Of a stretch of 46,598 nucleotides of DNA, positions 1 through 44,714 are shown in pieces. The notes under the pieces were generated by a model, which had not been told where the DNA came from, ran no database searches, and worked only from the letters and a program-made list of their open reading frames with translations. Both the position numbers and the translations under genes were made by a program. Positions within the stretch are counted from its first letter, which is position 1; every line of letters starts with the position of its first letter. Source of the stretch: a virus; IMG/VR virus record IMGVR_UViG_3300050821_023944, positions 1-46,598 of that record; one strand, 5' to 3'.

Positions 1-168
1 ATGATCGCGGTCGAAGTGCTTGGTTGGGCTGTGATCGCCTTGATTGGTCTCGCGGCAGTGGCTTGTCTCGCCGCACTGTATGTCTACGTGCTCGTGGGGA
101 TGGGGATCCCGTGGCTGATCCGTGATGCGTTCCGGTGGCTGGCCGGCCATAGGAGCACCGAGGGATGA
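1..168 (+). CDS. small membrane protein, possibly 5'-truncated
   Basis: A 55-residue ORF starts with ATG at the first base and ends in TGA, overlapping the next gene by ATGA. Residues about 7-40 form one long hydrophobic segment rich in Val, Leu, Ile and Ala. A basic tail (WLIRDAFRWLAGHR) follows, so it is predicted to be a single-pass membrane protein. No family is recognised. The true start could lie upstream of the window because nothing before base 1 can be seen. Confidence 0.6.
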   Translation: MIAVEVLGWAVIALIGLAAVACLAALYVYVLVGMGIPWLIRDAFRWLAGHRSTEG

Positions 169-4115: not shown

Positions 4116-4705
4116 CCAAGCGCACCTGCAAGGGCACCACCAGGAAGGGCACGCCATGTGGTGCGAACCCCTTGAAGCCCGGCACGATCATCGAAGGCGT
4201 TACGGTCACCGGCAAGTGGTGTCGTACCCACGACGGAGATCTTCCATCTTCAGCCAAGTTGCACGCTACGCGCACGCGTGAGCAGATGGGCGGCAGACCA
4301 AAGAAGCCCAGTCCAACAGAGATTGAGCGTCGCCTGATCGAGGAGAACGTGATCGCGTGGCAACGCCCGTATTGGCGGACGTTGGGCTACGACATGGTGA
4401 TGGGCGAGGACGGCCCGGAACTGTTGGAGCGCGAGGATGGTGGCGCGAAGCTGTTCGGGGAGAGCAAGGACGGCTATATCAACGTCAGTCCGCACGAGGA
4501 TTTGGGCGCGATGATCGCAGCAGCCGAGAAGCTTAGGGATCGTGTATTCGGCCGTCCGAAGCAGTCGAGTGAGGTGACGGTCATTACCCAGGACGTGATG
4601 GATCAGGCGATCGAACGGTTGGAGGCGGAACTTGCCATCAACGATCCAGGTAGCGGCGAGCCCGGAGTCGATCGAGCGATACAAGCAACTGAGGGCTCAA
4701 GCTAA
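4112..4705 (+). CDS. terS: putative terminase small subunit with N-terminal zinc knuckle
   Basis: Assigned mainly by position: it directly precedes and overlaps the large terminase by 74 bases. Residues 1-42 carry a DUF5763-like knuckle (CKGTTRKGTPCGANPL then KWCRTH). Residues 55-150 are helical and charged. A C-terminal helix (QDVMDQAIERLEAELA) could be the oligomerisation or motor-contact segment usual in TerS. No HTH is obvious by eye. The overlap hides the large-subunit start inside this gene and suggests coupled translation. It is expected to recognise pac/cos DNA and load the motor. Confidence 0.6.
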   Translation: MTKRTCKGTTRKGTPCGANPLKPGTIIEGVTVTGKWCRTHDGDLPSSAKLHATRTREQMGGRPKKPSPTEIERRLIEENVIAWQRPYWRTLGYDMVMGEDGPELLEREDGGAKLFGESKDGYINVSPHEDLGAMIAAAEKLRDRVFGRPKQSSEVTVITQDVMDQAIERLEAELAINDPGSGEPGVDRAIQATEGSS

Positions 4706-6392
4706 AGCCCGTCGAACGCAACACAAGGATGCGACGCCCGGCGTTCTGGCGCGCAGGCTTGATCCTCTGACAGTCCAAACATCCGCCCTCGACCTTATCG
4801 ACGGGGAGCTTGTCCAGATCCGTGACGGGCTTCGCATGATGTTCGAGCGGCGCAGTCACTTCGCCAGACTAATGGCCGCCGGCTTCTCAGACGCCGAGGC
4901 GATCCAGGCCGCACAAGACGAGGTACCTCAAGCAGGCAATGATCGCTTGACGGTCTCGATGCCGCCACAGGAGGGCAAGAGCAGCCGTGTGGGCCGCTAC
5001 GGAATCCTGTGGTTGCTACGCCAGTTCCCCGGCTTGCATATCGGGCTCGTCTCCTACGATGGCGACCATGCGAACCGGATCAGCTACATGATCCGCGGCG
5101 ATATCGAAGTCTTCAATGGTGAAGGTGGCAACCCCGACTTGGGTTTGCGGCTCGCTAAGAACCAGAAAGCTATCGGCCGGTGGATGCTCGCCCAACCCCA
5201 CGGTGGGGACGTGTATGCCATCGGCATCGGCGGAGGCATCACGGGACGCCCGATCGACCTGCTGTTGATCGACGATCCAGTCAAGGACATTCGGGCAGCC
5301 GACAGTGTGCTTCTTAGCAGTCAGGCATGGGATTGGTGGCAGACCGCCGCACGTCCGAGGCTCGCACCGTGGGCACCAGTGATCGTCGTAGCGACGCGCT
5401 GGCACGAGGCTGATCTGATCGGGCGGATGCTTACCAAGCAACAGGAGGACGAGCAGGCCGGTCTTGAACACTTCGACCGCTGGCATGTCGTCAACATCCC
5501 GGCGCAGGCCGACCATGATCCCAACAAGGCCGAGACAGACCTTCTAGGACGTGAGCCGGGCGACTTCATGTCCAGTGCCCGTGGACGTACCCGCGAGCAG
5601 TGGGAGGCCACGAAGGCTGCGACAGCACCACGCTTCTGGACCGCGCTCTACCAGGGACGCCCAACACCAGATGTCGGTGACGTGTGGCTGAAAACATGGT
5701 GGCGCCGGTATGACGAGCCGAAGTGGTCACAGCAACCCGACGGCACATTCAAGCTGCCCGGTGCCGATAGTGCGCTCCTATCAATCGACTGCGCCTTCAA
5801 GGACAAGAAGGACAGCGACTATGTGACGATGGGCGTCTGGGCGAAGTACGGCGCCGACAGCTACCTGATCTACCAGGTGTGGGCACGACTGAACTTCACC
5901 GACACCTGTACGGCACTCAAGCGTGTCGCTCGCCTGTTTCCCGGTGCGCACCGCAAGCTCGTGGAGGATAAGGCGAACGGGACCGCAGTTATCGAGTCCC
6001 TGAAGCGGACGGTGCCGGGCATCATCCCGATCACCCCAGTCCAACACAAGCGTGCTCGAGCGGAAGCCGTCAGCCCGTTCATCCGGGCAGGCAATGTGCA
6101 CCTGCCGACATCCAGCTTGGCTGCCATGTCCGCCGAGATCAGCTGGGACGTTGAGACGTTCCTAGTCGAGGCGACATCGTTCCCAAACGGTGCCCACGAC
6201 GACCAGGTAGACCAAGCATCCCAGGCCCTCGCCGAGCTGTACCTGGGCAAACACGGTCCAGCGCAGATCCTCACACCGCAAGGCGAAGTGCCGCGTCGTA
6301 TCAGCTCACCAGAACGCGGCACACCAACAAACCTTCCTCCCCATTTGCGCAGGCTGACAGAACGCCAATTGCAACGACCGAAAGGCAGATGA
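4632..6392 (+). CDS. terL: terminase large subunit
   Basis: 586 residues, in the usual TerL range. The ATPase domain has a Walker A-like PPQEGKSS at 111-118, Walker B LLLIDDP at 210-216 and the coupling motif VATRWHE at 253-259. The RNase H-fold nuclease has Asp386 in LLSIDC, Glu445/Asp446 in VEDKANG and Asp523/Asp524 in AHDDQVDQ. It cuts concatemers and drives DNA into the prohead. The likely start is a TTG at 4632 with GGAGG at 4621-4625, inside the small-subunit gene. Motif completeness indicates an active enzyme. Confidence 0.95.
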   Translation: MPSTIQVAASPESIERYKQLRAQAKARRTQHKDATPGVLARRLDPLTVQTSALDLIDGELVQIRDGLRMMFERRSHFARLMAAGFSDAEAIQAAQDEVPQAGNDRLTVSMPPQEGKSSRVGRYGILWLLRQFPGLHIGLVSYDGDHANRISYMIRGDIEVFNGEGGNPDLGLRLAKNQKAIGRWMLAQPHGGDVYAIGIGGGITGRPIDLLLIDDPVKDIRAADSVLLSSQAWDWWQTAARPRLAPWAPVIVVATRWHEADLIGRMLTKQQEDEQAGLEHFDRWHVVNIPAQADHDPNKAETDLLGREPGDFMSSARGRTREQWEATKAATAPRFWTALYQGRPTPDVGDVWLKTWWRRYDEPKWSQQPDGTFKLPGADSALLSIDCAFKDKKDSDYVTMGVWAKYGADSYLIYQVWARLNFTDTCTALKRVARLFPGAHRKLVEDKANGTAVIESLKRTVPGIIPITPVQHKRARAEAVSPFIRAGNVHLPTSSLAAMSAEISWDVETFLVEATSFPNGAHDDQVDQASQALAELYLGKHGPAQILTPQGEVPRRISSPERGTPTNLPPHLRRLTERQLQRPKGR

Positions 6393-7847: not shown

Positions 7848-10373
7848 ATGGCCAAGCGCCGGCTGGCCCTCAGGCGAAAGGCGACACCCCAACGCCAACC
7901 AGGACTACGAGTCCTAACCGCCTCTTCACGCCGTCTTGACCTGAAGAACAAGACGGAGGCACGCCAGTTCCGTGCACTTCGACAAGGCTGGCAAGCAGAC
8001 GCCTGGAACGCTAGGGACTCGATAGGCGAGCTGCGATACGCCGTCCAGTTCCTAGCAAACAGCGCATCGAGGATGCGTCTGTTTGTTGCTGCGGAGCCGA
8101 GCGAAGGTGAGTCAGACGACCCGATCTCCCTGGACAAGGTCGAGGGCGTTCCCCCCGAGGTCGCTGAAGTTGCGACGCAAGCAATGCGAGATCTCGGACG
8201 CGGCAAGCTCGCACTGAAAAACCTCCTCAAGGCGCAAAGCACAAACGTCTCAGTGGCCGGCGAGTGCTTCCTACTCGGCCAAACCGACCCGGAAACCGGG
8301 GAAGAACACTGGTCCATCCGCTCCACTGACGAGATCGTGGCGAAGGATGAGGCGTGGTGGATGCGCGAGATCCCCGACGGTCCACAGGGGATCATTCCGT
8401 GGGTCAAGCTCGACCCGGAACTGACGGTCGTCTCACGCATCTGGGTGCCGCATCCCAGGTTCGGGCTACTCGCGGATTCCGCAGTCAAGGCAATCCTCGA
8501 CGATCTGGATAGCCTCGGAATCCTGCGCCGCGGCATCCGTGCTGACGCTAAGTCTCGTCTTGGGCGAGGTGTCCTGCTCGTGCCGGAGGAGGCAATCCTC
8601 AAGACTCCGACCGACGACAACGAAGACCCTCAGGCGGACCCGGTCTTCGATGCGATCACCCGCGCGCTGATGGAGCCCATCTCCGATGAGGGTGTCGCTT
8701 CTGCTGTCGCACCGATAGCGATCCGTGCACCTGCGGAAGCTCTCAAGGAGTTCAGGCATCTGACGTTCGCACAGCCGTTTGAAGAGCAGGCCGCGAAGGC
8801 CCGCGAAGAGCTGATCGGGATCATCGCCACCAGCATCGACCTCCCCAAGGAGGTCATCATGGGAATGGCCGATCTAAACCACTGGACATCGTGGCAGGTC
8901 GACGACAACACGTTCAGGTATCACGTCGAGCCGCACGTCATCGGACTCTGCGACGGCCTCACCGGCGCTTATCTACGACCATATCTCAAGGCTGCTGGCG
9001 TCGATCCCGAATGGGTCCGACGGCTCGTCATCTGGTACGACCCGACCGAGCTCGTCACCCACCCTGACCGGACAGCCGATGCCGAAAAGGCTCACGCCGC
9101 GTTCGTCATCAGCGACGAGGCATATCGGGACGCCGCGGGTTTCACCGACGCGGACAAGCCAAGCGTCGAGGAGCTTGAGTTTCGTCAGTTCCAGCACATT
9201 CGGACAATGCCCCCGAACCTCCTCATGGAGTTCGCGCGCCGCGCAGACCCCACGCTTGTCGTGCCGCCGATCACAGTTGCGGGCACCATTCCAGGTATCA
9301 AGCCCGGCGGTGTCGACGCTGGACCTCCCGCATCAGTCGCACCCACCGGCGGGCTGCCGTCGTCGCCAACCTCGCCGGTTGGGCAGCCGCCGGTGGGTGA
9401 AGACGATCCACCTGCCGACCAGCCCGCCCAAGGACCACCACCGATCACCGCGTCGGGCTACTCGAACGCTCAGACGGTTCGTCTGTCACGCAAGCTCGCC
9501 TCGATCGACAGGGATCTCCGGGCACGACTCCAAACAGCAGCGAACGCGGCGATGCTCCGTCAGCTCGAGCGTGCCGGCGCGAAGCTCCGCACCAAGGTCG
9601 CGAAGGACGAGACACTGCGCACGAAGATCGCTCACCGTCCAAACGAGCGTGTACCCGCGATCTTGGGTGAATCGCTCGTAGCAGCGACCGGGCTATCTTC
9701 GGCGGATTTGATGGGTAGCGATGATTGGTCTGGTCTGAAGGCCCAGTTCTACAGTTGGACCGAGACCGCGCAGAAGCAAGCGATTGCCACAGCCATCCGC
9801 ATCGGTTCGCTCGCGGAAGACGCCGATGCTGTCAAGGCTGCGGAAGCCGCAATGGCCACAGGCCGCGACTTGGGTTGGGAAGTCCTCACGAACGCACTCA
9901 CCAACCTCGGCCACCATCTCCTCTACAACCCCGACCCGAACGTCGGCCCCGGCGACTGGGCGGACCTGAACCCCGACACGCTCGTACCCACCGGCACGAT
10001 CCGAGCAGCACTCGGAGTAGCGGGCGGGGGAGACCTCGGGATCATCCCTGGCAGCGAAAGCACGATCGCACTCGGCTCCCCGATAGGCCAGATCGGGACG
10101 GGAGCGACGATCACCGAACTGATCGAAAGCTCAGGGACCGTCGAACAGGACAAATACGAATGGGATCACGGGCCGAGCCTCAACCCATTCGAGCCACACC
10201 TCAACCTAGACGGAACGGACTTCGCGAGCTTCGACAGCGAAGCCCTAACGAACGGCACCGGCTTTCCTGACAACGCCTACTACTTCCCGGGCGACCACGA
10301 AGGCTGCTCATGCGATTTCACCCCCTTGTGGGTGCAGGCGGAAACCGAATCATCAACCGAAGGAGAGTCATGA
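7848..10373 (+). CDS. portal protein fused to a MuF-like C-terminal domain
   Basis: 841 residues, much longer than a normal portal (about 450-520). Residues 20-470 follow the HK97/SPP1 portal pattern: wing and stem sequences, and a clip region with SIDLPKEVIMGM and DDNTFRYHVEPHVIGLC. Residues 475-540 are a Pro/Gly-rich linker. Residues 545-830 are helical, then end in YYFPGDHEGCSCDFTPLW, like the His/Cys motif closing MuF-type minor head domains. One polypeptide probably supplies both the packaging ring and an internal head protein. The stop overlaps a duplicated ATG. Confidence 0.9.
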   Translation: MAKRRLALRRKATPQRQPGLRVLTASSRRLDLKNKTEARQFRALRQGWQADAWNARDSIGELRYAVQFLANSASRMRLFVAAEPSEGESDDPISLDKVEGVPPEVAEVATQAMRDLGRGKLALKNLLKAQSTNVSVAGECFLLGQTDPETGEEHWSIRSTDEIVAKDEAWWMREIPDGPQGIIPWVKLDPELTVVSRIWVPHPRFGLLADSAVKAILDDLDSLGILRRGIRADAKSRLGRGVLLVPEEAILKTPTDDNEDPQADPVFDAITRALMEPISDEGVASAVAPIAIRAPAEALKEFRHLTFAQPFEEQAAKAREELIGIIATSIDLPKEVIMGMADLNHWTSWQVDDNTFRYHVEPHVIGLCDGLTGAYLRPYLKAAGVDPEWVRRLVIWYDPTELVTHPDRTADAEKAHAAFVISDEAYRDAAGFTDADKPSVEELEFRQFQHIRTMPPNLLMEFARRADPTLVVPPITVAGTIPGIKPGGVDAGPPASVAPTGGLPSSPTSPVGQPPVGEDDPPADQPAQGPPPITASGYSNAQTVRLSRKLASIDRDLRARLQTAANAAMLRQLERAGAKLRTKVAKDETLRTKIAHRPNERVPAILGESLVAATGLSSADLMGSDDWSGLKAQFYSWTETAQKQAIATAIRIGSLAEDADAVKAAEAAMATGRDLGWEVLTNALTNLGHHLLYNPDPNVGPGDWADLNPDTLVPTGTIRAALGVAGGGDLGIIPGSESTIALGSPIGQIGTGATITELIESSGTVEQDKYEWDHGPSLNPFEPHLNLDGTDFASFDSEALTNGTGFPDNAYYFPGDHEGCSCDFTPLWVQAETESSTEGES

Positions 10374-14582: not shown

Positions 14583-15872
14583 ATGACCAGCACGCGCTTG
14601 GCGGTACCTGTTCCCGCGATCCCTCCCGAACCGCCAGTAATCACACTCCTCGACTCAGCACTCAGACCAGACAAGACGACAGACCCCAGCGGACAGCCGC
14701 TCGATGCGATCACGCCAGAGCAGATGGCGGCACTCCCACCTGATCTCAGGGCTGAGCTTGAGGCCCGCAAAGGCGACTACTGGCTGAAGGGCATCACCTA
14801 TGCGCCAGAGAACCATTGGCCAGTCGAGCTACGCGACGCCTGCGACGGGTCGAGTATCGACCTGCCGCCAATCCCGGCCCCTCGCGGCTTGACACTCACC
14901 GAAGAGGCCGGCGGCACGGTCAAAGCAGAAGAACTCGAATACCAGGTGACCGGCAAGAACGCCAACGGAGAGACCACCGCCCTGGCCGCAGTCAAAATCA
15001 CGCCCTCCAAAGAAGGGTCTGTCAAGCTCACCTGGGAAAAGGACAACGAGACCGCCCAATACAAGATTTACGGTCGAGCGAAAGGCAGCCTGAAACTCAT
15101 CAAGACGGTGGGTCCGTTCGACGACGATGAAGCTGCCGAATGGGTAGATAACGGGTCACTCGCGCCGGGTTCACCCAAACCACCATCATCCAACACCACG
15201 GGCGGTGGGGGCTCCTACACCAACCTGCCGAACGTCATCGCGATCCCCTACGGCATGGTCGCCGAGGATTACTGCAACACGTTCAGCTTCGACGCCCGCG
15301 ACTTCAAGGGCCGCGCCGAACGCCTCCTCGAGAACGGCAAGTACCAGGCTACGGAGAAAGAGTTCTGGACCGGCACCCTCGCACAAGCCAAGGGCCTGCC
15401 AAACAACTACCTGGCGAAGGAAGGCACCGCAACCAACCTCACACCAGGGACCGTCCCGTCGATCGAACGCGGGCTGGAGATCATGCAGGCCGCGCTCAGC
15501 GAATGCGGCTTCGGCGGTAGGGGCATGATCCACGTCCAACGCCAAGCTGCACCAAACCTGCTGCGTACCCGCCGGGTAGGGAATCTGTTGCTTGACATGT
15601 TCGACAACATCGTCGTCCCTGGCGTCGGCTACACAGGCACAGGACCAGGTGGTGTCGAACCGAAACCCGGCTGTTCGTTCATCTACGCCACCGACATGGT
15701 CGCCGCGCGGGTCGAGGACGAGTGCCAGGTCTTCACCGAGACGTTCGCTGAAGCGACCGACTGGTCACAGGGCGGGGAACCGAACACGATCCGGATGCGC
15801 GCCCAAAAGTTCGCGATCGCCTATTTCGACGCCGCGTGCTGTTTCTGCACCGAAGTAGAACTACAAAAATAG
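14583..15872 (+). CDS. structural protein with inserted FN3/Ig-like domain, 429 aa
   Basis: Good Shine-Dalgarno (gggaggg) 8-10 bases before ATG. Residues 1-95 and 215-429 look like one structural domain. Between them, residues about 100-195 form an FN3/Ig-like insert (GLTLTEEAGG, YQVTGKNANGETTA, GSVKLTWEKDNETAQYKIYG). The C-terminal part has NTFSFDARDFKGRAERLL and several cysteines near the end (DAACCFCTEVELQK). It lies between capsid and probable tail-tube genes, so a second head or head-surface protein is likely. No exact family is assigned. The insert could bind cells or mucus glycans. Confidence 0.7.
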   Translation: MTSTRLAVPVPAIPPEPPVITLLDSALRPDKTTDPSGQPLDAITPEQMAALPPDLRAELEARKGDYWLKGITYAPENHWPVELRDACDGSSIDLPPIPAPRGLTLTEEAGGTVKAEELEYQVTGKNANGETTALAAVKITPSKEGSVKLTWEKDNETAQYKIYGRAKGSLKLIKTVGPFDDDEAAEWVDNGSLAPGSPKPPSSNTTGGGGSYTNLPNVIAIPYGMVAEDYCNTFSFDARDFKGRAERLLENGKYQATEKEFWTGTLAQAKGLPNNYLAKEGTATNLTPGTVPSIERGLEIMQAALSECGFGGRGMIHVQRQAAPNLLRTRRVGNLLLDMFDNIVVPGVGYTGTGPGGVEPKPGCSFIYATDMVAARVEDECQVFTETFAEATDWSQGGEPNTIRMRAQKFAIAYFDAACCFCTEVELQK

Positions 15873-15892: not shown

Positions 15893-17113
15893 ATGACCGT
15901 CATCAACCCCACCGCATCAATTTTCGCGGTTGCTACACGCATCTGCGCTCTAGACGTCGAAGGCTACCCCGACCCCGGGAACGCCATGTACGTCACCGAA
16001 CAAATGATGAAGACCAGCCTCACACCTGTCATGGAGACGGGTGATGAACCCGTCGTGAAGAACGCCGCGGGCAACATCGCCGCATGGGCGAAGCACGCCG
16101 ACATGGTCAAGTACGGCACCATCGCACTCGAACTCTCCATCCCAGACCCCGCGCTTGAGGCGCTCTGCACCGGAGCGACGCTGCTCGGGTCGTCTGCCGC
16201 CGCCCTGGGCGAACCGTCCGGTCTGACCGTCACACCGCAGATCACGGGTGGGGAACTCGCCGCGAGCACCTACGGCTACCGTGTATCCCAGTACAACTCG
16301 TTCGGAGAGTCGAAGGCCCTCACCGACGTATCGGCCGCTGTTGCCTCGGGCACCACGGGTGCGGTCGTCGTGTATGCAAAGCCTGTCGCTGGAGCTCTCG
16401 GGCTCAGGGTGTACGGCCGTACGATCGGCGTCGAGCAGTTCTTGGGCACGATCCCCAACATCGGGGAACCCGAAACGAACGCGGCGATCAAAGCCGAAAC
16501 ACCCACATCGATCACTTGCGTCGCCCTCACAAAGTCGATACCGAAGGGCACTAAGTTCGTAGTCGAATCAGATGCCGACACCCCGAAGGTTATCTTCACC
16601 ACTACCGCATTTTGTCCGGTGGGCGTTGTGACGATCCCTGTCGAAGCATCCGGAGCCGTCGGGACAGAAATCGCTACGAAAAAGAAGCTGCTCGCAGTCT
16701 TCGTAGACACGGGTGCGATCACACCGTCAGGCAACCTTCCCCAGGAAGACCAGACGGCAGGGGCTGGCGAAAACCTGGGCGTGAACGCTTCCGAACTCGG
16801 GATCGTCGGCAACGAAAACGGTGTCTCGATCGAGGTGTTCGCGAAGGCCATCGAACACGGCCGCCAAGCTAACAGGCTTCCGTTCGTCCACTGGATACTC
16901 CCGAGGGTTACAGGGATGCACATTCAGCCCCGTGATCTTACGAACGCGAACACGGCCACGATCCTTGAGGGTCAGGCTGGCGAGAACCCGAACTGGGGTA
17001 CAGGCCCTGTCGGCGACTGGCCGTCAGCTTCTACTCGCTGGTATGGCCGGTTGCGGTGTGGGCGTGCGATCGTCCCGAAAGCGTCGTTTGAAAACACGCC
17101 AGCGACCGTCTAA
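15893..17113 (+). CDS. putative major tail (tube) protein with inserted Ig-like domain
   Basis: 406 residues. The N-terminal part (NAMYVTEQMMKTSLTPVMETG, GTIALELSIPDPALEALCTG) and C-terminal part (NGVSIEVFAKAIEHGRQANRLPFVHW, FEG-like ILEGQAGENPNWGTGPVGDWP) follow the order I know from actinophage tail-tube proteins. Residues about 105-210 carry an inserted FN3-like domain similar in layout to the one in the previous gene. The position before the adaptor is unusual for a tube gene, so a head-surface protein remains possible. Shine-Dalgarno AAGGAG precedes the ATG. Confidence 0.55.
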   Translation: MTVINPTASIFAVATRICALDVEGYPDPGNAMYVTEQMMKTSLTPVMETGDEPVVKNAAGNIAAWAKHADMVKYGTIALELSIPDPALEALCTGATLLGSSAAALGEPSGLTVTPQITGGELAASTYGYRVSQYNSFGESKALTDVSAAVASGTTGAVVVYAKPVAGALGLRVYGRTIGVEQFLGTIPNIGEPETNAAIKAETPTSITCVALTKSIPKGTKFVVESDADTPKVIFTTTAFCPVGVVTIPVEASGAVGTEIATKKKLLAVFVDTGAITPSGNLPQEDQTAGAGENLGVNASELGIVGNENGVSIEVFAKAIEHGRQANRLPFVHWILPRVTGMHIQPRDLTNANTATILEGQAGENPNWGTGPVGDWPSASTRWYGRLRCGRAIVPKASFENTPATV

Positions 17114-31645: not shown

Positions 31646-32191
31646 ATGCCCGGTATTACCCGTCCAGCTCGCGAAGCCTACCTAGAGCAGATCGAAAACC
31701 TCGAAAAGCAAGTCCGGGCGCTACAGACCCAACAGCAGTTCGTCATCACCGACCCATCCAAGGCTACGGGCGATCCGGCACATGGCTATGCGACGGTCGT
31801 CATTGGTCCGCTCAACACGATTTGCGGTATAGCCGCCTTTGGCGCGGCTGCATGGCAGAACGACAAATGGGTCCAGATCGGCGAAGACACCGGATGGATT
31901 GATGTGACTTCCTTCTCTAATTCTTGGGTTGGGTCAGGGGTCGCCTATCGAAAGGTAGCTAGTGTCGTGCGCCTTCGGGGCGAGTTCAGTAGCGGTACTT
32001 CGTTGGGAACGGCGTTTACGCTGCCTGTGGGATTTCGTCCAGACCAAAACGCTTTCTATGCGATGGGCGCTTGGTTCAACGACGCATCCGGATGCAACGT
32101 TTTGGTGGATGCAAACGGCGAAGTAAAGCCATCCACGAACGGTACATACGAACGGGTCGCTCTCGACGGCATCACCTTTACCACCGATTAG
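31646..32191 (+). CDS. short tail fibre with N-terminal coiled coil
   Basis: 181 residues. The coiled coil YLEQIENLEKQVRALQTQQQ near residues 12-31 probably trimerises the fibre. About 35-85 holds a small beta module (ATVVIGPLNTICGIAAFGAAAW) and 85-181 a jelly-roll-like knob (GWIDVTSFSNSWVGSG, VVRLRGEFSSG, FTLPVGFRPD, ERVALDGITFTTD) typical of phage receptor-binding heads. Likely a cell-binding tail tip fibre. Knob codons are more AT-rich than the upstream hub gene. Confidence 0.75.
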   Translation: MPGITRPAREAYLEQIENLEKQVRALQTQQQFVITDPSKATGDPAHGYATVVIGPLNTICGIAAFGAAAWQNDKWVQIGEDTGWIDVTSFSNSWVGSGVAYRKVASVVRLRGEFSSGTSLGTAFTLPVGFRPDQNAFYAMGAWFNDASGCNVLVDANGEVKPSTNGTYERVALDGITFTTD

Positions 32192-32200
32192 GAGATACGC

Positions 32201-33088
32201 ATGGCGATCAACAAAATACCGTTTGTCGTTGCGAGCACCGAAGCCGAGAGCACCGCTGCCCTGTTCCGTCAGGCGATCTCATCGTTCCTGAATCCGGCTG
32301 GTGGCACGGTCGCCGAAAAAGGCTTGACCGTCAAAGCGAAAGCCACACCGAACATGGAAGTCGAAGTCGAAGGCGGCGACCCCAATGGCCAGATATGGAT
32401 ACCCGGAACATCCCTGTCGAACCAGGGCTTGTATTTCTGCTCGGTTGATTCGACTACGGGACTTGCGATCGGCGCGGCCTCCACGTCAAATCCCCGCATC
32501 GACACGATAGTCGCGAGGGTTGAGGACTCGTTCTACGCCGAATCGAAAAACGAATTCCTACTCGAAGTAATCGCGGGTACACCTAAAGCCGGGATCAGCA
32601 AACCACCCAAAACGAAAGCCGAAGCCGAAGCCGATGGGGCCGGGGCTGTCTCCGTTTCGTCATACGCCTTGGCCTATGTACTGGTGCCGCAGAACGCACC
32701 CGCGATCACATCGGGTGATATCGAAAATGTATCGTCTCGCGTATCTCTCCCAGCCGGATCTGTTGGAGATTCGCAGATCACCAAAGGGCGCGCGCTCGTA
32801 GAGACAGAAAACGCATATAGCGGCACTGTTTCTCGAACTAATAATACAGAATATGAACCTAGCTCGACAAGATTTGTATTTGTTACCGTTTTGGTAAAAG
32901 GGAATGCGGCAGAACCCACTCAATTCGTGGTGAAGATTAATGGTGAAGCTATAGCTTACCAAAAGTGCCCAGCCGAATCGGGTATTATATCTCAGGCATC
33001 CTTCTCGTTTCTTTGCCCCCCCAAAGCAAAGTGGAAGGTCGAACTAAGTTTTGGTATCTTTATCGAATCCAGTTACCTTACACTTTAG
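32201..33088 (+). CDS. baseplate/receptor-binding protein, AT-rich C-terminus
   Basis: 295 residues after taggag. Residues 1-190 resemble phage baseplate upper proteins: GLTVKAKATPNMEVEVEGGD, QGLYFCSVD, PRIDTIVARVEDSFYAES, EVIAGTPKAG, LAYVLVPQNAPAITSGDIENV. From about residue 205 (base 32815) the sequence turns AT-rich with unlike codons and encodes a new beta domain (TRFVFVTVLVKGN, QFVVKINGEAIAYQKCP). That end was probably exchanged recently, as expected for a receptor-binding tip. Its stop overlaps the convergent minus-strand gene. Confidence 0.75.
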   Translation: MAINKIPFVVASTEAESTAALFRQAISSFLNPAGGTVAEKGLTVKAKATPNMEVEVEGGDPNGQIWIPGTSLSNQGLYFCSVDSTTGLAIGAASTSNPRIDTIVARVEDSFYAESKNEFLLEVIAGTPKAGISKPPKTKAEAEADGAGAVSVSSYALAYVLVPQNAPAITSGDIENVSSRVSLPAGSVGDSQITKGRALVETENAYSGTVSRTNNTEYEPSSTRFVFVTVLVKGNAAEPTQFVVKINGEAIAYQKCPAESGIISQASFSFLCPPKAKWKVELSFGIFIESSYLTL

Positions 33089-33654
33089 TGCATCCCATTT
33101 TCTTCAAACCACGCCTCTTCTTCGGGCGTTGATGGAAACGATTCGCCATTCGCTTCCGTAGCTTCTATTTGTTCAAGGGTGACGGCTTCGCATTCTTCTT
33201 CTTGTTCGGCGGCGTTGTAGATGCACGATTCGTATTCAGTTGGTTCTGCCGTGGCCTTGTGGGCCTTCTTTGCCTTGGCCTTATGGTGGCCTGCCGTAGC
33301 CGTGTGCGCTTCACCGTAGATGAGCTGGATGTATTTCTTCCAACCTCGATTCGCCGCTTCGCCTTTGCCGCACCACGCGCCGCCTGCTCCCTGTCCGCAG
33401 TGCCAGTGGTCTACTTCTATCGGGCCGTCTGATTCGGGCTCTTCTGGGTATCTGTCTTTCCCGCGGCCGTTCTCTAGGTCGCTGAGCACTTTGATGGCTT
33501 CGAGACAAGGGACGTGGCCGTAGGCAACTAGCACCTTTGATGGGTGGGGGAAACGTGCAACGTTGATCGTGCCGCACGAGCGTGTGCTCGCACTGGCTCC
33601 TGCGGGCACCGCGAGTACGGCGAGTACGGCGAGGGTGGTGGCGATACGCTTCAT
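33085..33654 (-). CDS. secreted Cys-rich protein with Lys/Ala linker, 189 aa
   Basis: Signal peptide MKRIATTLAVLAVLAVPAGASA, signal peptidase I site after ASA. The mature part has SCGTINVARF, VPCLEAIKVLSDLENGRGK, DHWHCGQ and AWCGKG, four spaced cysteines matching the domain in the neighbouring minus gene. A K/A-rich segment (HHKAKAKKAHKATAEP) and an acidic tail follow. Not a virion or lysis protein by sequence. It is oriented against the late operon behind its own leader element, so it is a cargo gene acting outside the cell. Function unknown. Confidence 0.75.
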   Translation of the reverse strand: MKRIATTLAVLAVLAVPAGASASTRSCGTINVARFPHPSKVLVAYGHVPCLEAIKVLSDLENGRGKDRYPEEPESDGPIEVDHWHCGQGAGGAWCGKGEAANRGWKKYIQLIYGEAHTATAGHHKAKAKKAHKATAEPTEYESCIYNAAEQEEECEAVTLEQIEATEANGESFPSTPEEEAWFEENGMH

Positions 33655-33720
33655 GGGTCGAACCTCCTGTTTAGGTTTGGCCGGCCCCGGGGCGTTGGAC
33701 CGCCGCCGGGGCGCTTAGTT
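33655..33720 (-). promoter_or_regulatory. leader element C: minus-strand copy of element A
   Basis: Read on the minus strand: stem GCCCCGG (33712-33706), 15-nt loop, CCGGGGC (33690-33684), then GGCCA and ACCTAAACAGGAGGT (33675-33661, one base shift in spacing), CGAC and the ATG at 33654. Compared with element A, one stem pair is changed on both arms (C-G to G-C), i.e. a compensatory change. The stem, loop length and Shine-Dalgarno block are all conserved. Confidence 0.7.
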
Positions 33721-33758
33721 CCGAGGACCGGGACGGTAGCGCATCCGGGGATGTCTTG

Positions 33759-34463
33759 TCAATCGGGCAGCGCTAGGACTAGTTCAGAGTGGCCGTGGGT
33801 TTCGCGGATGCAGGCTGGCGTTGGTTCTTTGCCGACTTCCCCACATAGCCAGCCTTTGGAGAGCAAGCGGCCATTGATAAACGACGTTTTGTGGTCGGGC
33901 TTTCCGGACCCATGCAGATAGGAGCCCAGGACCTTCCTGGCGGTGGCGCAAGACTCTGGCCCTTCATAGATCGACACATCCCAATTGAGTTTGGTGGCGC
34001 TCACCGTGCCGCATTCCCTTGTGGTTGATTTATGGGGTATGAGTTCTCGGCCCGATGTGCGATCGAAGGTATGGGACTGGCCCACCAAAGTGCTTTCGTT
34101 TTCCGCGTAGATGTATAGGCAGACATGTATGTCTCGCGGAAGGCCATAGGGCAGGATTGCGAAGGTGTTGTCGGAGGCCCCCGGAGTGGTTTGGAGTTCT
34201 CCGCTCCACGCACTATGCGAAGCGTCGAAGGTGATGGGACATTCCACGCTGCTGGAGTAGGTAGACGCCTCAGCGAACCAATCGCACGTAGAGTCCGGTT
34301 CGGACAGATATTCGGGGCAGTTGTGGTGGACTTCCGCCGTTACCTGGATCTCTTCGCTTTCGGGCAGCGACCGGATAGTTGCACCCCCGCTATCAGCGAG
34401 TGCGCTTGATGCCGTCATGCCCATCGTTGCGAGCGTGGCGAGTAGGACGAGTCGCTTGGTCAT
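33759..34463 (-). CDS. secreted Cys-rich protein, 234 aa, paralogue of neighbour
   Basis: Signal peptide MTKRLVLLATLATMGMTASSALA, cleavage after ALA. Residues 25-145 form a beta-rich domain with several cysteines. Residues 150-225 repeat the domain of the downstream minus gene: ECGTVSATKL, SCATARKVLGSYLHGSGK, GWLCGEV and PACIRE. The CGT...C-x-x-A-x-KVL...W-x-C order is frequent in secreted proteins of soil Actinobacteria as far as I recall. Shine-Dalgarno gggagg lies upstream. Possible lysogenic-conversion or superinfection factor; this is inference. Confidence 0.75.
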   Translation of the reverse strand: MTKRLVLLATLATMGMTASSALADSGGATIRSLPESEEIQVTAEVHHNCPEYLSEPDSTCDWFAEASTYSSSVECPITFDASHSAWSGELQTTPGASDNTFAILPYGLPRDIHVCLYIYAENESTLVGQSHTFDRTSGRELIPHKSTTRECGTVSATKLNWDVSIYEGPESCATARKVLGSYLHGSGKPDHKTSFINGRLLSKGWLCGEVGKEPTPACIRETHGHSELVLALPD

Positions 34464-34579
34464 CTGTGTTGCCTCCCTTGGCCTTTCGTTTGAGCGGGCG
34501 ACAACGTATCAAAGTGTCCGAATGACCTGAATATCGGGGGTTCCTGGATGTCGATATCGAGCTGGCGCGCTGATGAGGA

Positions 34580-34789
34580 ATGAGCCGGAGTCGTTCAGTG
34601 TGGGCGCGGGTCGTCCAAGACTGGCCCCGGTGGGCCCAGGTCGCAGGCGTGCTGTTGGGGTCGTGGCAGATCCTGGCATGGCAGGTCTCGGGCCACGAAC
34701 CGAACCTGGGAGTCATGACGTTCGCGGGAGCGCTGCTCATGTTCCAGCGCGCGGCGACGGCCGCCCGCCAGCGAAAGGACGAAAGTTGA
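34580..34789 (+). CDS. small membrane protein of lysis region, 69 aa
   Basis: N-terminal basic part (MSRSRSVWARVVQDWPRWAQ), then hydrophobic GVLLGSWQILAWQV and VMTFAGALLMFQ as two short membrane segments, and a basic tail (RQRKDES). The layout matches small actinophage membrane proteins located just before lysis genes, possibly holin-like. The Shine-Dalgarno is poor. It is the first rightward gene after the two minus genes, so a promoter should lie in 34464-34579; I see none that is convincing. Confidence 0.6.
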   Translation: MSRSRSVWARVVQDWPRWAQVAGVLLGSWQILAWQVSGHEPNLGVMTFAGALLMFQRAATAARQRKDES

Positions 34790-35513: not shown

Positions 35514-36320
35514 ATGAAGGTTCGTTGTCTCGCGGCGCTCGCCGTGCCGCTCGCACTTGCCGGTTGCAGTTCGACCGTGACGCACACCGTCACCGAGTTG
35601 ACGCCGGCTCCGGTCGTGACCTATATCCCGCCGGAAAGCTCCGTGACCCCAGAAGGCGCGAAGCCCGTGGCGCCCCCGGTCTCGTTGAAGCCGACGGTCA
35701 CACACGAGCTCACGATCGACTCGACGGGCTTGCGTCTGATCGAGGGCTTCGAGGGGTATTCGCGGTGTGCCTACTGGGATCCCTACGGTCACGTCTACAC
35801 AGCTGGGTTTGGTCAGACGAAAAGGATCTATGCGGGATTCTGTTTCGCTAGTCGTGCTGCCGCTGAACAGAACCTAAAGCGGTCCGTCCAAGCGGAATAC
35901 GAGTGGGCGGTTCACGCGATCGGCTACCCGTTTGACCAGCATGAGGTCGATGCGCTCGACAGCTTCGCCTACAACGTCGGCGCGGGAGTGTTTGTTGGCG
36001 CTCTCAGGGCAGACCTGGCCAGCGGCCATATCTATGCGGCGAGCCGGATCATGTTGCAGTACGACCACGCCGGGGGAATAGTCCTCGCCGGCTTGAGGCT
36101 ACGCCGAGAAATCGAGGTGCGGCTACTCCTCGCGCCGGAGCCGAAACCGAAGCCTTCTCGGGCTGCGCTGTTGCGTGAGCGAGAAGCCCTTCGGGTTGAC
36201 CTGACACGCCACCGCTGCCGGATTGCTCCTTACCACGGTCGTGGTCGTTACCACGCCATCTGCCATCGCTGGCTCAGTGAGGGCCAGTCCGTTGACCGTC
36301 AACTGAAAGGAACCAAATGA
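35514..36320 (+). CDS. endolysin, GH24 lysozyme with lipoprotein signal
   Basis: 268 residues behind AAGGAGG. MKVRCLAALAVPLALAGCSS is a lipoprotein signal with lipobox LAGC (Cys18). Residues 65-215 form a GH24 lysozyme: LIEGFEGYSRCAYWDPYGHV then YTAGFGQT, giving catalytic Glu80 with Asp89 and Thr96, plus SFAYNVGAGVF. It cleaves the glycan backbone of peptidoglycan. The basic C-terminus has LRVDLTRHRCRI and HAICHRWLSEGQ, perhaps a wall-binding unit. Lipid anchoring or Sec export is unusual for an endolysin and suggests holin-independent export with controlled activation. Confidence 0.88.
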   Translation: MKVRCLAALAVPLALAGCSSTVTHTVTELTPAPVVTYIPPESSVTPEGAKPVAPPVSLKPTVTHELTIDSTGLRLIEGFEGYSRCAYWDPYGHVYTAGFGQTKRIYAGFCFASRAAAEQNLKRSVQAEYEWAVHAIGYPFDQHEVDALDSFAYNVGAGVFVGALRADLASGHIYAASRIMLQYDHAGGIVLAGLRLRREIEVRLLLAPEPKPKPSRAALLREREALRVDLTRHRCRIAPYHGRGRYHAICHRWLSEGQSVDRQLKGTK

Positions 36321-36697
36321 AGCTCCAGCTCCCCTCGTGGGCGACCACCGTGGGTGGACTCGTCACGGGCATCCTCGCCGTCCTCAACCAGACCACCTTT
36401 AGTTTCGCTGCCCAGTGGCAGGTTTACATCACGATCGCACTGTTCTTCTTGTCGGGTATCGGGATCAGTCCGTTGGTGGGTCCAGCTTTCAGGGCCGCGT
36501 TGCATATCTCGACGAGGGTGAGCTTGGTTATCTCCTCCGCGCTTGGAGCGTTGGCGTTGGCTGCTACGACCCTCTCGATATCGAGCGGGGCCAAGGGAGC
36601 GATCCTTGGTGTCCTGACGTTCCTCGCGGCGCTCGGGTTTGCTCCCACTGCGGTCGGTGTGAGCTATGCCGCTCGGATCAAAGGAGCACGGCGATGA
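36317..36697 (+). CDS. putative holin, 126 aa
   Basis: ATGA overlap with the endolysin stop. Three to four hydrophobic segments: about 10-25 (VGGLVTGILAVLN), 34-55 (VYITIALFFLSGIGISPLV), 68-88 (VSLVISSALGALALAATTL) and 94-118 (AILGVLTFLAALGFAPTAVG). It ends in a basic KGARR. Size, topology and neighbourhood fit a holin that permeabilises the membrane at lysis. No sequence family is certain. Confidence 0.75.
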   Translation: MKLQLPSWATTVGGLVTGILAVLNQTTFSFAAQWQVYITIALFFLSGIGISPLVGPAFRAALHISTRVSLVISSALGALALAATTLSISSGAKGAILGVLTFLAALGFAPTAVGVSYAARIKGARR

Positions 36698-39416: not shown

Positions 39417-39551
39417 ACGCCGTATCTTGCTTGTGGGTAGCGTTCTGTTCGGCCACCCAGCGGAACTTCGTACCTAGCTGCTACGGACTATCTTAGGTGG
39501 TGTCCGGACGGCTTGTCAAGATGCAGGGGAATGAGCTTGCAGCTTGAATAA
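39417..39551. other. spacer without recognisable gene
   Basis: 135 bases between the stem-loop at 39393-39416 and the tRNA. No ORF, promoter or repeat that I can support. Together with 39624-39781, which holds only the hairpin at 39731-39759 and a -10-like CCTATAACG near 39695, this is a low-coding-density stretch of the control region. Confidence 0.5.
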
Positions 39552-39623
39552 GGCCCCCGGCGGGATTCGAACCCGCGACCTCCCAGTTAGCAGCTAGGTG
39601 CTCTTCCGCTGAGCTACGAGGGA
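39552..39623 (-). tRNA. tRNA, anticodon GCU (Ser codons AGC/AGU), without the long serine arm
   Basis: Minus strand 39623-39552, 72 nt, no encoded CCA. Acceptor TCCCTCG/CGGGGGC with a mismatch at 1-72. D-stem GCTC/GAGC. Anticodon stem CCTAG/CTGGG with loop CTGCTAA (anticodon GCT). Variable loop AGGTC only 5 nt; T-arm GCGGG-TTCGAAT-CCCGC. Serine tRNAs in bacteria carry a long variable arm; this body, with a T1 start, looks like an asparagine tRNA whose GUU anticodon became GCU. Function may be lost, or the charged amino acid may differ from the anticodon. Confidence 0.8.
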
Positions 39624-39730
39624 CGAGCATCGTAGCTTTGTTCGGTGTGGTGTAGGAGTCGATCCACAAGTCAGCACGGCGGTTTGAAGAAACCTATAAC
39701 GGGCGGATCAACGGGCCGTCCAGACCGCAG

Positions 39731-41413: not shown

Positions 41414-41962
41414 ATGGATGCAGCCGGGTTAGACCCCACCACCCAGGCAGACACAGACCTAGCGACCGAGAGAGCACGCATGCTCTTCGCCGCAGCCTGC
41501 AACGGCGCGGCCCACCAGCCGGGCCTGCCACTCCACGAACGCGCCGGCTATCTAGCGATGCGACGCGAAGCCGTACGGCTCGCCACCGGCGAGGCAGAGC
41601 TAACCCCAGTGTTGCATATAGGCTACAGTTGCACGGACCGGGACGATCCTATAAGGTCACGCCCCGTGGGCGAACGTACGTTCGGTAGGACGACTGAGGA
41701 GCTTCAGCGGGGACCGATGATGGAGGCGCCAAACAGGGACGAAACGCCGGTGGGTGAGTGGGAGGCGCATGCCGAGTTTGACCTTGGGCTACTCATTGGC
41801 TCGTACCTTCGGCGGAATCCTCCTCCCGTCGATTCCCATCTGGCGGTAGAGCTAGACGACTGTGCGCGAGATTTCGAAGTCGCTGGCCGGGCTCACCTTG
41901 CCCAACTTGGCCGAGGTCCGCTACGTCTAGCACCTCGCGGGGCGTTCCCCACACGACGATAG
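41414..41962 (+). CDS. hypothetical protein, 182 aa, 3' part antisense to XRE gene
   Basis: ATG behind agggggagacagcgc. The first 65 residues look coding (DLATERARMLFAAACNGAAH, RAGYLAMRREAVRLATGEAE). The middle spans a palindrome and a promoter-like stretch. The last 55 residues lie antisense to the minus-strand XRE gene. A later internal start (ATG about 41717) is possible. The 3' half may not be translated, or the two genes may truly overlap. No domain is recognised. Confidence 0.45.
   Translation: MDAAGLDPTTQADTDLATERARMLFAAACNGAAHQPGLPLHERAGYLAMRREAVRLATGEAELTPVLHIGYSCTDRDDPIRSRPVGERTFGRTTEELQRGPMMEAPNRDETPVGEWEAHAEFDLGLLIGSYLRRNPPPVDSHLAVELDDCARDFEVAGRAHLAQLGRGPLRLAPRGAFPTRR
41629..41684 (+). 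promoter_or_regulatory. promoter-like stretch with perfect 14-bp palindrome
   Basis: TTGCAC (41629-41634), 15 bases, TATAAG (41650-41655), then a perfect palindrome CGAACGTACGTTCG at 41671-41684 just past the expected start point. The spacing is short for sigma-70. The palindrome has the size of an operator for a dimeric HTH protein. It lies inside the ORF 41414-41962, which makes one of the two readings doubtful. Confidence 0.4.
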
Positions 41963-42164
41963 CCCAGAGCACGTACGGAGGCGTCACGGGCGTTTTGCCT
42001 TCCTCCATGCGCGCGATCGAGCCGCGCTCTACACCCATCTGACTCGCGGCCTTCGTCTGACTGAGATTCGCATGTTGCCGGGCGAGCTTCCAACGCTCGC
42101 GCAGGCTTAGTTGTGTGTTTGGGTCGGCCATCCGTGGCTTGATCGTCGCGCATCCGTGCGGCAT
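41793..42164 (-). CDS. XRE-family repressor, CI-like arm of divergent switch
   Basis: 123 residues from the ATG at 42164 (AAGAAGG lies 6-7 bases before it on the minus strand); the ATG at 42131 is an alternative. LSLRERWKLARQHANLSQTK, AASQMGVERGSIARMEEGKT and PYVLWAIVVWGTPREVLDVA are the HTH_3 helices. A Gln/Arg-rich C-terminal tail could dimerise but is not a CI peptidase. Only 60 bases separate it from the oppositely oriented XRE gene at 42225, the geometry of a repressor/Cro switch. Confidence 0.78.
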   Translation of the reverse strand: MPHGCATIKPRMADPNTQLSLRERWKLARQHANLSQTKAASQMGVERGSIARMEEGKTPVTPPYVLWAIVVWGTPREVLDVADLGQVGQGEPGQRLRNLAHSRLALPPDGNRREEDSAEGTSQ

Positions 42165-42188: not shown

Positions 42189-42224
42189 TTGACAGGCGTG
42201 TAGTGCTATGCTACATTATGTGGC
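42189..42224 (+). promoter_or_regulatory. consensus sigma-70 promoter with overlapping inverted repeats
   Basis: TTGACA (42189-42194), exactly 17 bases, TACATT (42212-42217), then 7 bases to the GTG at 42225. The expected start of transcription coincides with the GTG, giving a leaderless mRNA. GTAG-N7-CTAC (42200-42214) and ACATTATGT (42213-42221) are inverted repeats covering spacer and -10, likely operators for one or both flanking XRE proteins. This is the best-matching promoter seen in the window. Confidence 0.8.
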
Positions 42225-42455
42225 GTGACACCACACACATCCCCCAAGTTCGACCTCGCAAGCGCCCGAATCAACGCTGGCCACTCCGTACGTTCGCTGG
42301 CCGCGCAGATAGGGATAGACGCCCGAACGCTGGGCCGCCTGGAACGCGGTAAGCCGGTACATCCGGGCAGCGCCAAGAAGATCGCGGATTGGGCTGGCGT
42401 CGAGGTCACTGACTTGATGCCTGCCAAGCCTCAGGGGCGGAGGGCAGCCGCATGA
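42225..42455 (+). CDS. XRE-family regulator, Cro-like arm of switch
   Basis: Leaderless GTG start; 76 residues. FDLASARINAGHSVRSLAAQ, IGIDARTLGRLERGKPVHPG and SAKKIADWAGVEVTDLMPAK are a complete XRE HTH with recognition helix DARTLGRLE. A short basic tail (GRRAAA) overlaps the next start by ATGA. It is the first gene of the rightward early operon. A Cro-type role is inferred from size and the divergent partner. Confidence 0.82.
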   Translation: MTPHTSPKFDLASARINAGHSVRSLAAQIGIDARTLGRLERGKPVHPGSAKKIADWAGVEVTDLMPAKPQGRRAAA

Positions 42456-44062: not shown

Positions 44063-44316
44063 GCTGGCTAGCATGGGTGATCCTGGCAGCACTGGTTGGT
44101 GTGGGTGTTCTCTTCGCTTGTGCTCTCGCGTGGATTGCTCAACAGGCTGATGCTCAACCGGCGGTCGCGTCGTGTGACCATCCTGGATGCTCACGGCTAG
44201 CCACGGTCAAACTGGATGTCAACGGGCGCAAGTGTTACTCGTGTGAATCTCATGTCGGCGAGATAGTCCGCGAAGCCTCAGACTCTTCTTTTGAGGCATT
44301 CGGTGTTGCGGCATGA
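44059..44316 (+). CDS. membrane-anchored zinc-ribbon protein, 85 aa
   Basis: The ATG at 44059 overlaps the previous stop. A membrane helix at residues 3-27 (LAWVILAALVGVGVLFACAL) precedes a soluble part with CDHPGCSRLATVKLDVNGRK then CYSCESH, a four-Cys zinc ribbon. Topology resembles 35182-35490 (helix plus ribbon) but the sequences differ. It may tether a complex to the membrane. Function unknown. Confidence 0.62.
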   Translation: MSWLAWVILAALVGVGVLFACALAWIAQQADAQPAVASCDHPGCSRLATVKLDVNGRKCYSCESHVGEIVREASDSSFEAFGVAA

Positions 44317-44714
44317 CCGAGTATTGCGAGCTTGACTTCGTTTGTCCTGACCACGGTTGCGAGCATTACAAGATCCCGGTCGAGGTGCGGTGTCGTACCG
44401 AACCGTTGAACGTCACGACCCCTATCGATGATCGCGACTTGGACTGTGAGTGTGGGGACCGTCTCATCCAACATGACCTGTTGGGATGCGAGAGCGTGTC
44501 ACCGGAGACTCGACGTAGGTACAAGGCGTTCGCTGCGACGGCGTGCCTCGCACTAGTCGGGCTCGTTGGTTGCGGCGGAGCTTCGGTTGCACGCCGAGTC
44601 AACACAGCCTGCGGACCCGGTGCTCATACCGTGTCGGTTGAAAGCCACGGCACATGGCATACCTACTGGGTTGTCAGGTGCAGTGACGGCACGGTCCGGA
44701 TGGTGGGCGAATGA
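44313..44714 (+). CDS. zinc-binding domain joined to lipoprotein-like segment, 133 aa
   Basis: ATGA overlap upstream. Residues 1-58 contain Cys/His pairs (CPDHGCEH, DCECGDRLIQHD). Residues 68-85 read YKAFAATACLALVGLVGCGG, a lipoprotein-type signal with lipobox LVGC. The rest is a small domain with two cysteines (NTACGPGAHTVSV, WVVRCSDG). A lipobox in the middle of a protein is odd. An internal GTG near 44494 would give a normal small lipoprotein, so two in-frame products are possible. Confidence 0.5.
   Translation: MTEYCELDFVCPDHGCEHYKIPVEVRCRTEPLNVTTPIDDRDLDCECGDRLIQHDLLGCESVSPETRRRYKAFAATACLALVGLVGCGGASVARRVNTACGPGAHTVSVESHGTWHTYWVVRCSDGTVRMVGE

Follow-up and report, generated by a model that had tools for sequence, protein, structure and literature searches.

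A minus-strand pair of predicted exported proteins sharing a four-cysteine domain at the tail-lysis junction of an actinobacterial-type phage

Two minus-strand genes, P0001 and P0002, stand in a phage genome with tail genes on one side and lysis genes on the other, and this position raises the question of what proteins with the marks of secretion are doing there, where they came from, and when they are made. We address it for IMG/VR record IMGVR_UViG_3300050821_023944, the whole of which (46,598 bases) was analyzed as a single stretch, referred to here as the window; the record may itself be a fragment. Judged from sequence, the two genes are a genuine pair encoding predicted exported accessory proteins, and the four-cysteine domain that both carry is uncatalogued and probably descends from a host. 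We put at about an even chance the more specific reading that they are moron-type cargo of an actinobacterial phage, exported, acting at the host envelope, and read while the phage is resident.

The gene pair and its setting

The window reads as a tailed phage of actinobacterial type. It has a terminase, a portal, and a major head protein with PHROGs family matches, and half of the portal's length aligns at ~33% identity with the portals of Microbacterium, Gordonia, and Mycobacterium phages. Some of the structural and packaging genes have peculiarities of their own: the terminase (4632–6392) contains an insertion of ~35 residues near residue 70 that is missing in four aligned relatives, and the portal (7848–10373) has 841 aa compared with about 570–640 aa in five relatives. 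The adjoining structural genes at 14583–15872 and 15893–17113 both match the esterase/lipase family phrog_19622 through a similar stretch, and this common match suggests a shared inserted domain. The features on which the following account relies are listed below, each with the evidence for it.

32201–33088, plus strand: last tail/virion structural gene (convergent with P0001; PHROGs)
33085–33654, minus strand: P0001, predicted exported protein of 189 aa (ORF, BLASTP, cysteine count, signal-peptide filter)
33655–33732, minus strand: 5' leader of P0001, with a GC-rich hairpin and AGGAGG at 33663–33668 (sequence; shuffle test)
33733–33762, minus strand: promoter-like site TTGACA-18-TACCGT upstream of P0001 (pattern count)
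33759–34463, minus strand: P0002, predicted exported protein of 234 aa (ORF, BLASTP, cysteine count, signal-peptide filter)
34464–34579, no strand assigned: divergent intergenic region of 116 bp (sequence reading)
35514–36320, plus strand: GH24 endolysin with a lipoprotein-type N-terminus, LAGC (Pfam/PHROGs; sequence reading)
41793–42164, minus strand: HTH transcriptional repressor-like gene (phage repressor family match)
42225–42455, plus strand: divergent HTH gene (phage repressor family match)

The ORF listing agrees with an earlier note on this DNA in placing both frames at these coordinates on the minus strand, opposite to the late genes, and the position between tail and lysis genes described there holds as well, with a tail/virion structural region at 31646–33088 (PHROGs) on one flank and the GH24 endolysin on the other. 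The last tail gene runs toward P0001 from the opposite strand, and the two genes have 4 bases in common. At the other end of the pair, a small plus-strand ORF at 34580 is divergent from P0002, and the intergenic region contains the GGGAGG ribosome site of P0002 (34472–34477) together with a weak -10-like sequence, TACGTT. The endolysin has a 50% identical relative (4920–5729 of locus L274) in which a Cys also follows a hydrophobic start, and both may be membrane-anchored endolysins.

A dedicated leader had likewise been attributed to one of the two genes, and P0001 is indeed preceded by an upstream region of ~104 nt with AGGAGG and TTGACA-18-TACCGT, the -35 element of which shares bases with the stop codon of P0002. 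In Actinobacteria, TANNNT can serve as a -10 sequence. The promoter-like site was first noticed by eye, before sites were counted, and TTGACN-16..18-TANNNT occurs three times on the two strands of the window (1.2 expected), which is not remarkable in itself. A stricter sigma-70 (TATAAT) scan found no promoter before P0001, and the leader hairpin does not stand out from those of shuffled sequences (z -1.2). Another of the three sites, TTGACA-17-TACATT at 42189, falls between the divergent HTH genes, which may form an immunity switch. No integrase was recognized among the window ORFs that were scanned (part of all ORFs), and a resident state is thus possible, albeit unproven. Elsewhere in the window, a complete tRNA-Ser (GCT) gene lies on the minus strand at 39551–39624 in a gene-poor stretch, and the ORF at 44313–44714 encodes a product of 133 aa with 11 cysteines (8.3%) and no Pfam match, which is possibly metal-binding.

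Export features and the shared domain

Clear signal peptides had been claimed for both proteins, and direct reading of their N-termini, MKRIATTLAVLAVLAVPAGASAS for P0001 and MTKRLVLLATLATMGMTASSALA for P0002, bears this out: each has the Sec-type features of a basic start, a hydrophobic core, and small residues at -3/-1. Neither signal peptide ends in a lipobox Cys. Both proteins are also among the four of 232 window ORFs (those of at least 70 aa) that pass a crude filter for a signal peptide plus at least four cysteines. Sec export of P0001 and P0002 is therefore a well-supported prediction. Cysteines are abundant in both, with six in P0001 (3.2%) and eight in P0002 (3.4%); of 44 other window ORFs that were counted, 40 have a content of at most 2.34%.

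P0001 consists of a signal peptide (residues ~1–23), a Cys domain (~24–116), a Lys/Ala/His-rich linker, and an acidic tail that holds two further cysteines (144 and 155), while P0002 has a signal peptide of the same extent, an N-terminal domain without a match, and the Cys domain at its C-terminus. The domain occupies the following positions, for both of which the evidence is BLASTP, a shuffle test, and a low-confidence model.

33307–33585, minus strand: shared Cys domain of P0001 (residues ~24–116)
33762–34028, minus strand: shared Cys domain of P0002 (residues ~146–234)

In a single BLASTP comparison the two proteins share 21 of 69 aligned residues (30%, E 2e-4), and their local alignment reaches z 8.5, with none of 3000 shuffles as good. 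The alignment joins the C-terminal domain of P0002 to the N-terminal half of mature P0001, over a domain of ~85 residues with four conserved cysteines (C27/C50/C86/C95 in P0001, C151/C172/C207/C218 in P0002) and the conserved order CGT-x(n)-C-x2-A-x-K-V-L-x(n)-W-x-C-x(n)-C. Taken together, the BLASTP score, the shuffle result, and the shared motif and cysteines establish that P0001 and P0002 are paralogous. The earlier note had thus read a shared domain and its residue order correctly; its description of the domain as C-terminal applies to P0002 and fails for P0001, where the domain comes immediately after the signal peptide.

AlphaFold2 predicts, with low confidence (mean pLDDT 67 and 60 for the two domain models), the same order of elements in both domains, namely strand, strand, helix, and then strands. 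Each model was built on a four-row alignment of the same four sequences, and because of this the two are not independent and offer only a weak check on the structural similarity that the earlier note asked for. With these low-confidence models as queries, Foldseek returned no match at E <=0.001 in PDB and BFVD, and VIA-align gave a best Z of 3.6 in a list that did not include PknH-like folds.

Relatives in bacteria and in related phages

The domain lies outside the families that were consulted. Scans of P0001 and P0002 against Pfam, PHROGs, NCBIfam, and PADLOC gave no match, PDB sequences yielded chance matches only for both proteins and for the domain profile, and tblastn with either protein found nothing in phages or in plasmids. 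Locus searches with single proteins (P0001, P0002, a tail protein, and the product of the gene at 36694) returned no relative. A motif pattern hit four stretches of viral contigs, none of the domain family, and a tighter one, which does recover P0001 from the window, hit nothing in the same contigs. The first pattern was also found in none of 296 genomes, a result that is uninformative because the same pattern missed G106 and G275, the two genomes in that set known to hold a relative.

These two relatives, both in genomes of Actinomycetota, are the convincing products of the search for bacterial homologues. L088 (genome G275) is a membrane protein in which an N-terminal Pkinase domain (17–231, E 1e-45) is followed by a hydrophobic stretch, then by a Pro/Ser linker, and finally by the Cys domain, the ectodomain of this Ser/Thr kinase. 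L108 (genome G106) is a secreted protein in which a weak TIG match precedes a C-terminal Cys domain; it has extra Cys. All four cysteines align between the phage domains and L088. P0001 is nearer to L088 (z 11.0, Gumbel p ~4e-7, 0 of 3000 shuffles as good) than it is to P0002, and P0002 is related to L088 at z 4.9 (2 of 3000 shuffles as good) and to L108 at z 5.9. The similarity between L088 and L108 is weak (matched by 35 of 3000 shuffles), and that between P0001 and L108 is lower yet (76 of 3000); owing to these weak similarities, it is mainly P0001 and P0002 that tie the family together.

Profiles were run against samples of up to 396 Actinomycetota genomes; the samples overlap, so that the counts are not additive, and sensitivity was limited, only part of the candidates being scored in many genomes. 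Twenty of 396 genomes matched in one search and four of 217 in another, with one convincing case each (L088 and L108, respectively). No convincing case emerged on reading from the 18 of 296 genomes with E <=0.1 or from the six of 118 that matched, and searches of 66 genomes (the class of G275) and of 119 genomes each recovered a single match, the source itself. A search of 239 genomes with the whole of L108 matched 10, comprising the source and nine whose similarity lay outside the Cys domain and lacked the domain motif. In 538 kb of G106, the profile revealed no further copy of the domain (best E 0.05) and is a better test there than a regular expression, which proved too strict for L108 itself with its extra Cys. 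Thus, of the proposal that soil Actinobacteria have multiplied this domain, the presence of relatives in Actinomycetota stands, and the expansion is not confirmed by these shallow searches. Host ancestry of the shared domain is plausible on these comparisons. Both loci also have an HTH gene beside a nucleotidyltransferase-like gene, a toxin-antitoxin-like arrangement (106–946 in L088, 2217–3178 in L108) that may be coincidental.

Two candidates from a tblastn search with the L088 domain, each at E 2, were rejected: gp89 of phage Phrappuccino, which lacks the C-x2-A-x2-V and W-x-C parts, and an Azospirillum match that lies on the opposite strand of an annotated gene. The L108 protein had no tblastn match in phages.

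Related phages were approached through the terminase, for which 80 related loci were kept among viral contigs. A domain profile matched none of the records of 50 of these 80 loci, a set in which there was no positive-control match, and a motif scan of 451 kb (the 80 terminase loci, 12 relative stretches, and the window) gave three matches, namely the P0001/P0002 pair and one judged to be chance. The tail-lysis junctions of two relatives were read closely, and neither has the pair. G726, whose terminase and cysteine-protease-like lysis-region gene are 69% and 76% identical to those of the window, respectively, has at this junction collagen-like fiber genes together with a 371-aa gene on the plus strand, the latter looking on reading like a glycosyltransferase. 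In L274, whose endolysin is 50% identical, tail genes are followed by a small gene and then the endolysin, without a comparable exported pair. The GC3 of the pair (0.61 and 0.66) is lower than that of the core genes listed (0.69–0.78). This absence from the relatives examined and the lower GC3 fit cargo in a variable region; two adjoining tail genes are equally low in GC3 (0.55 and 0.61), however, and the compositional signal of the pair may therefore be regional. A G726 locus, L223, has opposite-strand ORFs of its own upstream of minor tail genes (1753–2262 and 2439–2924, both on the minus strand); they have membrane or export-like N-termini and no Cys motif, and the region is perhaps another cargo slot.

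Possible roles of the pair

If the pair is moron-type cargo, P0001 and P0002 would leave the cell by the Sec route, and the shared domain would likely be stabilized by disulfides outside the membrane, as suggested by the even cysteine counts (6 and 8) and the four conserved positions. The kinase-ectodomain context of L088 points to binding of an envelope component. The genes would be read from their own promoter or promoters against the late operon, most likely during residence, and the benefit would most likely fall at the surface, as superinfection exclusion or a changed host envelope, for which Ltp, gp41, and the Sbash prophage operons (see below) serve as precedents. To our knowledge, the exported cargo of actinobacterial phages is poorly mapped. 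The four-cysteine domain, which has no match in Pfam, NCBIfam, or PHROGs, links such cargo to a secreted bacterial protein and to the exterior of a Ser/Thr kinase, and the pair suggests a route by which phages might alter envelope sensing or exclude rivals.

The location between the tail genes and the endolysin would also suit lytic-phase helpers, exported during infection and acting on the envelope to regulate lysis or release, and an exported protein of Cutibacterium acnes phages is strongly expressed in active infection (PMC11480721). We nevertheless consider such a role fairly unlikely, given that the pair lies on the strand opposite to the late genes, has no similarity to PHROGs lysis families, and is missing from this place both in G726, with its homologous neighbor, and in L274, with its homologous endolysin. 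The direct adjacency to tail fiber genes and the similarly low GC3 could instead indicate minor virion proteins that look exported yet are packaged, e.g., adhesive fiber accessories. This is highly improbable: signal peptides would remove the products from the cytoplasm, where tailed phages assemble, and the genes are on the opposite strand and lack a PHROGs tail match. Patchy presence and differing GC3 would be expected as well of host DNA picked up by chance or through a recent recombination event, without benefit to the phage, but two diverged paralogues have kept intact frames, ribosome sites, and signal peptides, which suggests upkeep by selection and leaves this explanation a slim chance.

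The kinship with L088 invites a further reading, in which free copies of a kinase ectodomain act as soluble decoys of a host sensor, soaking up its ligand or binding a partner and thereby altering envelope signaling. The P0001 domain has its nearest relative on the outside of a membrane-bound Ser/Thr kinase, and in mycobacteria one domain type is common to PknH and to free exported proteins and lipoproteins (PMC4118811). We regard decoys as doubtful all the same, since a single kinase carrier was found and L108 is not a kinase; moreover, what these proteins share may be no more than a common module for binding the envelope. Literature searches on exported phage proteins and kinase decoys listed no such decoy. 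We give little credence to the bolder form of this idea, that phage-borne soluble sensor-kinase ectodomains intercept an envelope ligand and rewire host signaling from outside.

For the preferred reading of envelope-acting cargo, several known systems offer partial parallels. In the PknH sensor-domain family, Rv3705c, LpqQ, and LppH are free exported relatives of the kinase ectodomain, so that one disulfide-bearing extracytoplasmic domain type is found on a Ser/Thr kinase as well as in exported proteins that stand alone (PMC4118811). The pair and L088 show a like arrangement, and their four conserved cysteines may likewise form disulfides. The phage domain differs in its size of ~85 residues and in its occurrence in a phage, and none of P0001, P0002, and the L088 domain gave a Pfam match of the PknH-sensor kind at E <=1. 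In Streptococcus phage TP-J34, Ltp is a surface-exposed superinfection exclusion lipoprotein that blocks DNA injection, and it resembles the pair in being a phage-encoded exported protein outside the membrane (PMC3952083). Ltp is, however, a lipoprotein of the lysogeny module with two helix-turn-helix repeats (PMC3952083), whereas the pair lacks a lipobox, lies between tail and lysis genes, and is predicted, with low confidence (pLDDT 60–67), to be mostly strand with one helix.

The exported protein gp41 of Cutibacterium acnes phages, which has been proposed to act in superinfection resistance, resembles the pair in that it belongs to actinobacterial phages and has a C-terminal part predicted to be mainly strand with one helix (PMC11480721). 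Compared by description, it differs in being conserved in all C. acnes phages tested, and the portion of the account at hand mentions no Cys domain (PMC11480721). Mycobacteriophage Sbash expresses genes 30/31, 32–34, and 37–39 in lysogens, some of them leftward (PMC6426596). These accessory operons recall the pair, and the Sbash defense pair adjoins a likely tail gene; that pair, 30/31, is RexAB-like and in this respect unlike the exported Cys proteins described here (PMC6426596).
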